Source of the DNA: an uncultured Alphaproteobacteria bacterium
GTDB lineage: Bacteria; Pseudomonadota; Alphaproteobacteria; Rs-D84
Assembly (NCBI GenBank): GCA_944389595.1
Contig: CALXMY010000003.1
Location: 1 to 64,000, forward strand
Direction of reading: 5' to 3'
Length of the DNA: 64,000 nucleotides
Positions 5,977 through 41,557 of this stretch are shown here, piece after piece. The first letter of the stretch is position 1; every line of letters starts with the position of its first letter. The notes under the pieces are model-generated. The model was not told the origin of the DNA. It was given only the letters and a program-made list of their open reading frames with translations, and did no database searches. A program made the position numbers and the translations under genes.

Positions 5977-6174
5977 TTATTTAATTGCGTTTAAAGTATG
6001 ATGTGTTAAATTCATGAACAAAATCAATTGCAAATTTGTTGGGTGTACGGTGCCACGAACTATATCGCGGTATCCACGTTCGTCGACATCAAAAGTGTTG
6101 TACATTTCAAAAATTGAAATATTGCATTCACAACGAATTTTTTCTATTTCCCGCCCCAGTGGTAATTTTGTCAT
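5977..6174 (-). CDS. Small protein of unknown function behind a structured leader
   Basis: 65 residues, with a GGGGAA ribosome site upstream. The pattern (REIEKIRCECNISIFEMY then DERGYRDIVRGTVHP) is faintly like a small helix-turn-helix regulator, but I cannot assign a family. Its main point of interest is the 170-nt structured leader that ends about 30 nt before the start (6204-6376) and resembles the leader of the nuclease-like gene at 40406. Confidence 0.5.
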   Translation of the reverse strand: MTKLPLGREIEKIRCECNISIFEMYNTFDVDERGYRDIVRGTVHPTNLQLILFMNLTHHTLNAIK

Positions 6175-6203
6175 TATATTCCCCGCGTTTTGTTGTGTAA
6201 CAA

Positions 6204-6376
6204 AAAACCACCGGAATAAAAATTCAAGTGGTTGGAGGATACAAACTATAATAGAGTATAGCGGGCTTATTCGATATATTCACCACCCTCCAACCAATGT
6301 TGGAGTTCTCTTCGATCAAAAAAATGACCGCTCTATTGGGGTTTGTATGCCCCGCAACAACAACACATTGTTGCGT
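6204..6376 (-). ncRNA. Structured RNA leader, copy A (attenuator-like)
   Basis: Read on the minus strand: hairpin GCAACAA/TTGTTGC, GGGG, helix ATACAAAC..AATAGAG pairing with CTCTATT..GTTTGTAT, an internal hairpin CTCCAAC/GTTGGAG, the conserved GGTTGGAGGGTGGTGAATATA, then CCTCCAACC and a terminator AACCAC/GTGGTT with T6. GGTTGGAGG can pair with the later CCTCCAACC, which overlaps the terminator stem, so two exclusive folds are possible. Copy B at 40213-40386 keeps the folds with different bases in the long helix. Confidence 0.7.
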
Positions 6377-6452
6377 TTGTAATTATAACACCGCGCAATT
6401 TTAATTGCAAATAATTATGACGTTGGTATAAACTGGGGCAAAAGGGGTTTTT

Positions 6453-9638: not shown

Positions 9639-9646
9639 TTAAAAAC

Positions 9647-9674
9647 TTGCATTTGCCACCATAAATATTATAAT
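9647..9674 (+). promoter_or_regulatory. Promoter of the tmRNA gene
   Basis: TTGCAT (9647-9652), 16 bp, TATAAT (9669-9674), directly ahead of the acceptor piece of ssrA. Confidence 0.6.
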
Positions 9675-9680
9675 TATTTT

Positions 9681-10005
9681 TGTCGCAAAAGCGATGATGA
9701 TTCTGAATCCGTTGCGGAATAGTCGTTTTGGACTGGGGGGCGGTACCCCACAGCTCCACCAATAAATATTATGGGGCTGACATAGTTTCGACAGGCGCAG
9801 TAAAGGCAAATCGGGTGAATCCGACGTGGTGTCGTTAAAAGCCAAATAAAAACTGAATGGCGATAGAATCGCTGCGAACGACAATGTTCGCCTTGCAATG
9901 GCTGCCTAATTGGCGTTTGAACATAATTGGCAATTGTTAGTTATGTTCGTATGGCTTATTGCGGGGCCGCTGGGTGCCCGGCAACAGAAACCCAGCAAAT
10001 TTGAA
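9681..10005 (+). ncRNA. ssrA: Circularly permuted (two-piece) tmRNA
   Basis: The 3' tRNA-like part lies first: TGGGG/CCCCA T stem, then CAGCTCC-A-CCA ending at 9761. After 11 bases (9762-9772) the 5' part begins with GGGGCTG (9773), which pairs with CAGCTCC, and runs into the coding piece. This order is the permuted form known from alphaproteobacteria, where the linker is cut out to give two RNA pieces. The resume codon GCG is at 9874 and the tag ORF ends at TAA 9907-9909, giving ANDNVRLAMAA (plus the charged Ala). The coding piece ends near hairpin GCTGGGT/ACCCAGC. Exact 5' and 3' ends are estimates. The partner smpB is at 59439. Confidence 0.92.
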
Positions 10006-40180: not shown

Positions 40181-40212
40181 GTTGATAAAAAATCGCACAA
40201 GTGGTAAAATAT

Positions 40213-40386
40213 TCCTGATATCGGGAGTTCTGATATCGGGGTGTAGTAACCCGTTTACGAGTGTCCGCAGTGACATAAAACCATCCAACCGTTTGGTTGG
40301 AGGGTTGTGAATATACAGAATAAACAACACAATTCTCGTAAATTGTTACTAACCTCCAACCACCAGATTTCTTGGTGGTTATTTTA
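40213..40386 (+). ncRNA. Structured RNA leader, copy B (attenuator-like)
   Basis: Order: hairpin GATATC/GATATC (40217-40237), GGGG, helix TAGTAAC..TTTACGAG (40244-40261) with CTCGTAAA..GTTACTA (40335-40351), hairpin TCCAACC/GGTTGGA (40284-40301), conserved GGTTGGAGGGTTGTGAATATA, then CCTCCAACC (40353-40361) and terminator AACCACC/GGTGGTT (40358-40380) with ATTTTAT. GGTTGGAGG can instead pair with CCTCCAACC and prevent the terminator. The coding start at 40406 follows GGAGGG. Copy A at 6204-6376 has the same plan with different helix bases. Confidence 0.72.
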
Positions 40387-40405
40387 TAAACCAGCGGAGG
40401 GAAAA

Positions 40406-41557
40406 ATGTCCACAGCAAGAATTGTACAAAGACCGATTATCGTAGATAAATCTGGTAAAACCGTTTCACCAGAACTGGTCAAAATGCCTAACGAGGCTTG
40501 GCTACAAAAATTGCTGCCGACCTGCCCAGATATACTACCAACAGCAGAAATAGACTCTAAATATTCGCAACTTTTTTATATTGCCAGTGAAGTCGCCACA
40601 GAATCCACCAAAACAGGCAAAGGTCATATTGATATTCTGTACGTATCAACAAATGGTAATTTAGTAATTGTTGAAACTAAACTATACCGCAACCCAGAAT
40701 CCAGTCGCCAAGTAATTGGACAAGTTTTGGATTATGCTGTAAGCCTGCACGACACAAAACAGTGGAATTGGGACAAGTTAGAGTCAATTTACAAAGGGAA
40801 AGATTTATACTCAGACATTAAACGCAAATACCCAGAAATCACCAGCAAAGAAAACTTTATTGAAAAAGTAAATGAATCTATTCGCAAAGCCGACTTTCTT
40901 ATGATGATTGTTGGTGATGCAATCAGGCCAAGTGCAGATAAAATAGCAGAATTTATCAACAGCCCAATAGATATGCATCACAGATTGGCTCTTTGCGAAC
41001 TTACAACCTATAAAATGGCAGACAAATTCTTGGTTGTTCCGCGTTTAACAACTTCCACTAATATACTAGAACGGGCAGTAATTACTCTGAAAGATTCAAA
41101 AATTATCGCAACAGAAACAAAGCAACAGCAAGCCACAGAATCAGAATACAAGTACTTTCAAATCTCTATGGAAGACTTTATTTCAGACTTTACAAACAAG
41201 AACACACAGATTACTCCTGATATGTTATCTGCATTTTTTGACGCCTTGCATTCGGCAGGTTTCAGCACAAAAACTGCAACAAAACAGGTTTCTATCGGTA
41301 TTCCGGGCGTAGTGTCTTTATTTCAAATATCAACAGACAGCATATGGTTTACACCATCAAAATTGCAGGCAACATTAAAAGGCACGAAAGCCAAACCCGC
41401 CCTGTCCTATTTATTAGAAAGCCTGAAAGACTTTTTAATAAAAGGTCAAAATCCATACAAAGTTATGAACAAGTTCTACCGTTTGGATTTCTCGGTTATA
41501 AATACCAAACGCACAGAATTTATATCAGCACTTTCTAAGTTTAAGGAAATTGTATAA
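40406..41557 (+). CDS. PD-(D/E)XK nuclease-like protein
   Basis: 383 residues from ATG 40406 with GCGGAGGG upstream. The core GHIDILYVSTNGNLVIVETK, then SSRQVIGQVLDYA, fits a PD-(D/E)XK restriction-like fold (D, ExK, QxxxY). The N-terminal MSTARIVQRPIIV and the C-terminal 180 residues are unassigned; the C-terminus has helical text ending FYRLDF and may bind DNA or a partner. It sits at the left of the restriction operon, convergent with it (3-bp gap), and its expression may be switched by the leader at 40213-40386. Confidence 0.65.
   Translation: MSTARIVQRPIIVDKSGKTVSPELVKMPNEAWLQKLLPTCPDILPTAEIDSKYSQLFYIASEVATESTKTGKGHIDILYVSTNGNLVIVETKLYRNPESSRQVIGQVLDYAVSLHDTKQWNWDKLESIYKGKDLYSDIKRKYPEITSKENFIEKVNESIRKADFLMMIVGDAIRPSADKIAEFINSPIDMHHRLALCELTTYKMADKFLVVPRLTTSTNILERAVITLKDSKIIATETKQQQATESEYKYFQISMEDFISDFTNKNTQITPDMLSAFFDALHSAGFSTKTATKQVSIGIPGVVSLFQISTDSIWFTPSKLQATLKGTKAKPALSYLLESLKDFLIKGQNPYKVMNKFYRLDFSVINTKRTEFISALSKFKEIV

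Follow-up and report, generated by a model that had tools for sequence, protein, structure and literature searches.

Two copies of a structured leader RNA in a gut alphaproteobacterium of the order Rs-D84: probable transcription attenuators related to sRNA-Xcc1

The C4 antisense RNA of phages P1 and P7 (RF01695) lies upstream of an antirepressor gene on the same transcript and pairs with the translation start of that gene. ZTP and fluoride riboswitches place a ligand-stabilized pseudoknotted core beside an overlapping terminator. A third RNA, sRNA-Xcc1 of Xanthomonas (RF02221), was detected as an 88-nt RNA by Northern blotting and RACE (PMC2996969). In Xanthomonas, it has been reported upstream of symE and in integron cassettes (PMC12444791), and Chen 2011, going by its title as cited in PMC12444791, calls it trans-acting and integron encoded. 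Xylella carries seven copies, five of which are clustered (PMC12189769). A literature search, with most subscription papers outside its reach, returned no description of sRNA-Xcc1 as a leader.

This work describes two copies, A and B, of a leader RNA within a 64,000-nucleotide window, by which we mean the whole stretch of DNA that was analyzed (contig CALXMY010000003.1, positions 1 to 64,000). The window comes from a Candidatus Enterousia-type gut alphaproteobacterium of the order Rs-D84, whose genome holds about 13 copies of the RNA. Candidatus Enterousia belongs to the GTDB order Rs-D84 and has genomes of <1 Mb and a symbiont- or parasite-like lifestyle (PMC12306168). We regard it as likely that copies A and B are best explained as cis-acting attenuator leaders, forming the type I branch of a superfamily that contains sRNA-Xcc1. 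They differ from C4 in both fold and sequence, giving no C4 match and showing no pairing to a ribosome-binding site. They also differ from ZTP- and fluoride-type riboswitches, with no Rfam riboswitch match and no metabolic theme found by Pfam, NCBIfam, or PADLOC among the genes behind the leaders. Family members were gathered with covariance models, referred to here as R1 (built from five copies), R2 (built from the 61 copies of alignment A5), and R3 (the model of type II, described below). The elements of the two copies are as follows; the percentages of paired cells lean high, for a reason given with alignment A5 below.

40213-40386, + strand: copy B leader RNA
40205..40210, + strand: copy B -10-like box TAAAAT, part of the leader's own promoter (sequence; -10- and -35-like boxes enriched here across 133 aligned copies)
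40213..40241, + strand: P0, the 5' hairpin, where the transcript is expected to start (fold; double-sided change at 7 of its 8 pairs across 61 copies)
40239..40252, + strand: P1a, local GGG..CCC hairpin with the P1 5' strand as its loop (97.5% paired, covarying)
40244..40250, + strand: P1 5' strand TAGTAAC, partner at 40345-40351 (95.6% of cells paired, with covariation at 6 of its 7 pairs)
40254..40261, + strand: P2 5' strand TTTACGAG, partner at 40335-40342 (z = 38.8 against partner-shuffled copies)
40262..40275, + strand: P2a hairpin, missing from some copies (covarying, 90.5% paired)
40284..40290, + strand: P3 5' strand TCCAACC, putative anti-antiterminator (pairs with the middle strand, more loosely than PK3)
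40295..40303, + strand: middle strand GGTTGGAGG, common to P3 and PK3 (covaries with both partners)
40304..40328, + strand: P4 hairpin with two AAUA motifs (GAATATACAGAATAA) (loop conserved in type I)
40330..40345, + strand: P5 hairpin CAATT..AATTG, loop containing the P2 3' strand (A-U to U-A in 23 of 61 copies)
40335..40342, + strand: P2 3' strand CTCGTAAA (covariation)
40345..40351, + strand: P1 3' strand GTTACTA (covariation)
40353..40361, + strand: PK3 3' strand CCTCCAACC, putative antiterminator partner of 40295-40303 (99.1% of cells paired in 61 copies)
40358..40385, + strand: copy B intrinsic terminator AACCACC..GGTGGTT (stem 40358-40380), then a T-rich tract (sequence, covarying stem)
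40396..40401, + strand: ribosome-binding site GGAGGG of the copy B gene (sequence)
6204-6376, - strand: copy A leader RNA (model match 6191..6378; R2 142 bits, E 4.7e-36; R1 165.6 bits)
6382..6387, - strand: copy A -10 box TATAAT (sequence)
6287..6295, - strand: copy A middle strand GGTTGGAGG (sequence)
6230..6238, - strand: copy A PK3 3' strand CCTCCAACC (sequence)
6202..6233, - strand: copy A intrinsic terminator (sequence)

Copy A has the same elements as copy B with the bases changed (TACAAAC/GTTTGTA in P1, and ATAGAG/CTCTAT). All leader elements that an earlier note on this DNA had named in the two copies were found where it had placed them; it had missed the -35/-10 promoter, P1a, P5 with the P2 3' strand as its loop, and the two AAUA motifs in P4. 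The window also encodes an alphaproteobacterial tmRNA (9643-9999, + strand), within which the permuted-tmRNA model matches.

Both the folding and the covariation data bear out the proposal that these leaders are structured. In dinucleotide-shuffle folding, the two copies gave z-scores of -5.69 and -5.67, and none of 200 shuffles folded as well. The compensatory change that had been read from a comparison of the two copies recurs in alignment A5, where 37 of the 50 pairs in the named structure show double-sided change. The covariation score of the whole structure in A5 is 0.453, compared with 0.176 ± 0.007 for shuffled versions and at most 0.107 for slid versions. When A5 was scanned for excess pairing without reference to any structure, the top column pairs fell in P1, P0, P5, P4, and P2, and P5 supplied one of the strongest covarying pairs. 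PK3 is more constant than P3 (99.1% versus 94.4% of cells paired in 61 copies), both percentages leaning high because the sequences of A5 were picked among copies in which every helix had been detected. The same helices are present in the first 36 model matches, which were not preselected in this way. For 144 nonredundant copies, z-scores relative to partner-shuffled copies were 38.8 for P2, 35.4 for P0, and 16.9 for P4; those for P1 and PK3 are inflated, as the parser itself used both helices. P1 and PK3 are also near perfect in 37 divergent copies that come from other families in the order and class (score of 30.2 versus 17.2 when shuffled). There, the P4 region takes the form of a variable hairpin within an internal loop, flanked in nearly all cases by the two AAUA motifs. 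Because they are two members of a large family, copies A and B encode a real structured RNA, far beyond chance, and we consider structure and family settled. A core variant without the AAUA pair, GGGTTATGTCC..GCTAAAAGCCCGC, was observed on the same P1/PK3 chassis at four loci of one family (L259, L265, L269, and L273 of family f2).

The middle strand has two possible partners, one upstream (P3) and one just ahead of the terminator (PK3). The three competing strands vary in step between versions of the RNA (GGTTGGAGG, GGCAGGAGG, GGCTGGAGG, GGCAGGAAG, GACTGGGAG, and GGTCGGGG), and of 144 copies, 137 have a terminator stem that overlaps with the PK3 strand. PK3 is a helix of 9 bp that competes with P3. 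Sequence and covariation thus place a structured core and a mutually exclusive expression platform in copies A and B, which supports the antiterminator/terminator switch put forward in the earlier note. As we picture it, each leader would be a cis-acting element of ∼170 nt that controls the next gene by transcription attenuation. Its fixed chassis would comprise P0, P1a with the loop that makes P1, P2 with a 3' strand that doubles as the P5 loop, P3, and P4 with its paired AAUA motifs. In the OFF state, formation of P3 would leave the strand before the terminator free, so that the terminator forms. In the ON state, PK3 would form instead, stack beside P1, and take away the lower half of the terminator stem. 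Mean summed energies are -23.1 kcal/mol for OFF (P3 plus terminator) and -20.0 kcal/mol for ON (PK3 plus residue), sums that leave out pseudoknot and tertiary contacts; on these estimates, the two states lie near balance, and a factor could tip them. The polarity of the two states and their switching in the cell are what we infer from this arrangement.

Ribosome-mediated attenuation offers another way to decide termination, in which GGAGGG followed by GTG or TTG in the P4 loop would start a leader peptide. A start codon does lie 3 to 12 nt after GGAGG, opening a frame of at least 4 codons, in 114 of 144 copies compared with 52 after shuffling, and in copy B the frame stays open into the gene. 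This excess follows from conservation of the AAUA loop. GCG and GTG are about equally frequent at the loop position (55 and 54 copies), and the start codon is not conserved. Moreover, frame lengths are scattered, the copy A frame stops early, and the start codon is missing in divergent families and in type II, leaving translation of a leader peptide a very improbable basis for the switch.

A transcription attenuator is further supported by where the leaders sit. In 133 aligned copies, a -35/-10 pair directly precedes P0, so that the transcript would start at the 5' hairpin, and the start of the next gene follows PK3 at a median of 51 nt (quartiles, 45 to 57). Taken together, the leader's own promoter, P3, a PK3 strand overlapping the terminator, and a gene starting ∼50 nt farther on suggest that the leader RNA very probably decides whether its gene is transcribed. 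By a simple heuristic, 127 of 242 downstream products appear to bear a signal peptide, and the families represented among the downstream genes include Cro/C1-like helix-turn-helix proteins, Stealth, PAP2, EamA, and hexapeptide acetyltransferases. The genes behind copies A and B are as follows.

40406..41557, + strand: gene controlled by copy B in our reading, encoding a 383-aa PD-(D/E)xK-like candidate defense protein (PADLOC PDC-S11, E 6.6e-12)
5977..6174, - strand: gene after copy A, encoding a 65-aa small protein that by eye resembles the small Cro/C1-like proteins behind other copies

The earlier description of the copy B gene as nuclease-like finds support in weak matches of its product to models of the BbrUII/HgiDII restriction enzymes and NucS; the protein matched nothing in Pfam or PDB, and the PADLOC assignment given above is to a candidate defense family. 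No family match was obtained for the 65-aa protein in family-model searches. Two signals considered for the switch, c-di-GMP and ppGpp, are unlikely, as neither GGDEF nor RelA/SpoT was found in any of 13 genus genomes. Other families of the order, unlike the 13 genomes sampled from the genus, mostly have GGDEF and RelA/SpoT.

Some genes have not one leader before them but two or three in a row, every one carrying its own promoter and terminator (L051, L016, and L211). Such an arrangement fits stand-alone RNAs and hence an alternative in which the RNA of ∼170 nt released at the terminator, or its 3' half after processing, is the functional molecule and acts in trans on other mRNAs, as has been published for sRNA-Xcc1, and the next gene is incidental. 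Detection of sRNA-Xcc1 as a discrete RNA (PMC2996969) and the five clustered copies in Xylella (PMC12189769) also speak for a trans-acting product. Against it stand the near-constant distance at which genes start behind the terminator, the fact that the strand adjoining the terminator forms the most conserved pairing, and a match between leader and adjoining gene in gammaproteobacterial relatives, described below. We consider action in trans unlikely and prefer cis attenuation.

The range of the family was assessed with blastn and the covariance models. A blastn search with copy B found five places in its own genome and, at that sensitivity, relatives only within its own genus. R1 gave 36 strong matches in 34 loci and detected the RNA in 91 of 96 genus genomes, with type I copies reaching at least 25 per genome in genomes of ∼0.9 Mb. 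For the window's own genome, R1 gives 13 matches and R2 gives 11 with E < 1e-4. Within the order Rs-D84, R2 found the RNA in 188 of 201 genomes, representing 21 of the 23 genera. Of 289 genomes from elsewhere in the class, 17 had matches (20 in all, E ≤ 1e-4); in a 200-genome sample of the phylum, the window's own genome was its sole match. Thus, the search of relatives with a covariance model, suggested in the earlier note as a check, retrieved many copies upstream of genes, with compensatory changes. Occurrence in viruses was considered as well and set aside: three pattern matches lie in viral contigs, but the neighboring genes look host-like.

This distribution bears on whether the element might be a mobile repeat or an integron attC-like site rather than a regulatory RNA. 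The AAC..GTT ends of P1 resemble attC cores, and sRNA-Xcc1 is integron borne in Xanthomonas (PMC12444791). However, the copies have a promoter before them, a terminator within, and a ribosome-binding site after, and their helices are kept by compensation at an aligned core identity of ∼79%. They lie on many contigs, on both strands, and in several families across the class, and a blastn search with copy B against 50,697 phage records and 72,556 plasmid records gave no match. The locus flanks that were read showed no integrase array. A mobile repeat or recombination site is scarcely credible on this evidence, and we retain the regulatory leader.

The link between these leaders and sRNA-Xcc1 runs through a second type of the RNA. 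In type II, a sister type found in the same genus, GGTCGGG, mostly accompanied by GGGTCAT, replaces GGTTGGAGG and CRCTAT. The window's own genome has five type II copies (L068, L073, L074, L075, and L076), and further ones were collected from relatives (L283 to L312). Type II sits before many genes for secreted Cys-rich proteins, on the type I chassis. The two types detect each other: R3 scores are 42.8 bits for copy B and 37.2 bits for copy A, and R2 finds 30 of 30 type II loci, with E values from 1e-11 to 6e-3. R3 matches 112 of 113 genomes of the family, a count that partly reflects cross-detected type I copies. Among the relatives' type II copies, one (L293) reaches 56.4 bits with RF02221 and is the sole copy above the gathering cutoff of 53, and eleven others score 39 to 52 bits (E ≤ 0.002). 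RF02221 gave no match to copies A and B up to an E value of 10, its gathering cutoff not being reached, and left the type II copies of the window's own genome unmatched as well. The link to sRNA-Xcc1 is therefore transitive, and we treat copies A and B as a branch related to RF02221 rather than as members of it. The earlier note did not recognize the RNA as a known riboswitch class, and for copies A and B themselves, Rfam gave nothing above noise, every known riboswitch class included. The RNA does have known relatives, however, in that the sister type II matches RF02221 and the types cross-detect.

RF02221 spans only the 3' half of the architecture, from the PK3 5' strand to just past the PK3 3' strand, and across it the elements follow in the order PK3 5' strand, P4, P5, P1 3' strand, and PK3 3' strand. 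The closing PK3 helix, P4 with AAUA/GAAUA motifs, P5, and the P1 3' strand are thus shared, in the same order, with the Rs-D84 leaders. We place type I as a diverged branch within one RNA superfamily, together with type II and sRNA-Xcc1, and the full architecture of this superfamily is so far unrecognized in the sources available to us. An 88-nt RNA of the sRNA-Xcc1 kind would start at the PK3 5' strand; in Rs-D84, the promoter lies before P0. The branches also differ in some respects. Rs-D84 copies, unlike sRNA-Xcc1, number in the tens per genome, before surface and regulator genes. They also end in an intrinsic terminator and lack a ribosome-binding-site tag (z 2.2 and 0.9), whereas the gammaproteobacterial relatives carry such a tag and, in place of the terminator, a hairpin without a T-run.

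In these gammaproteobacterial relatives, sRNA-Xcc1 copies lie directly upstream of ORF6N, Ant, KilA-N, BRO-N, or AntA/B genes, in E. coli prophages, a P. aeruginosa plasmid, and Acinetobacter and Pasteurella phages. RF02221 scores the copy in an E. coli prophage (L313) at 79.6 bits and that in the P. aeruginosa plasmid (L314) at 72.6 bits; in both, P1, P2, P3, and PK3 are present, with P1, P2, and P3 upstream of the Rfam boundaries. Five distinct versions carry all four helices by automatic parsing. The 5' strand of P2 is repeated just before the start codon as CAAGTAG, CCAAGCAGAGG, ACGAAG, or GCGATAGG, with CCAAAAA less well placed. This repeated tag was seen in six copies (L313, L314, L315, L316, L318, and L319), where it matches the ribosome-binding site of the gene that follows and differs from case to case; this is the match between leader and adjoining gene that argues against action in trans. 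Because the P2 5' strand recurs before the start codon, the P5 loop could pair with the ribosome-binding site and could thereby block translation of the antirepressor gene in the manner of C4. In L320, as read by eye, the 3' half matches its own ribosome-binding site and the 5' half is mismatched; it may be a recombinant. The pattern in these copies suggests that sRNA-Xcc1 is a cis leader rather than a trans-acting sRNA. The layout of C4 is shared by these relatives, and a C4 match lies near L313: in the same E. coli prophage as the sRNA-Xcc1 copy, C4 antisense RNA (77.1 bits) and isrK (58.7 bits) match upstream of rha (L313:1462-1649).

We tentatively propose, as a possibility we would not yet bet on, that one chassis, full-length sRNA-Xcc1, has been put to two uses. 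In phages, it would act as a C4-like immunity device holding a private tag three times, in the P2 5' strand, as its complement in the P5 loop, and in the ribosome-binding site of the antirepressor gene. The version in gut alphaproteobacteria would have been rebuilt with a terminator and copied throughout the genome, forming a regulon of surface proteins and Cro/C1-like regulators.

For sRNA-Xcc1, these findings offer a testable function, in that its known 88 nt would correspond to the 3' half of a leader acting in cis before phage antirepressor genes. For the order Rs-D84, with type I copies reaching at least 25 in a genome in addition to type II, and with mostly secreted and surface proteins encoded behind the leaders, a single family of leader RNAs may govern an appreciable part of the gene complement across an order of host-dependent gut bacteria.
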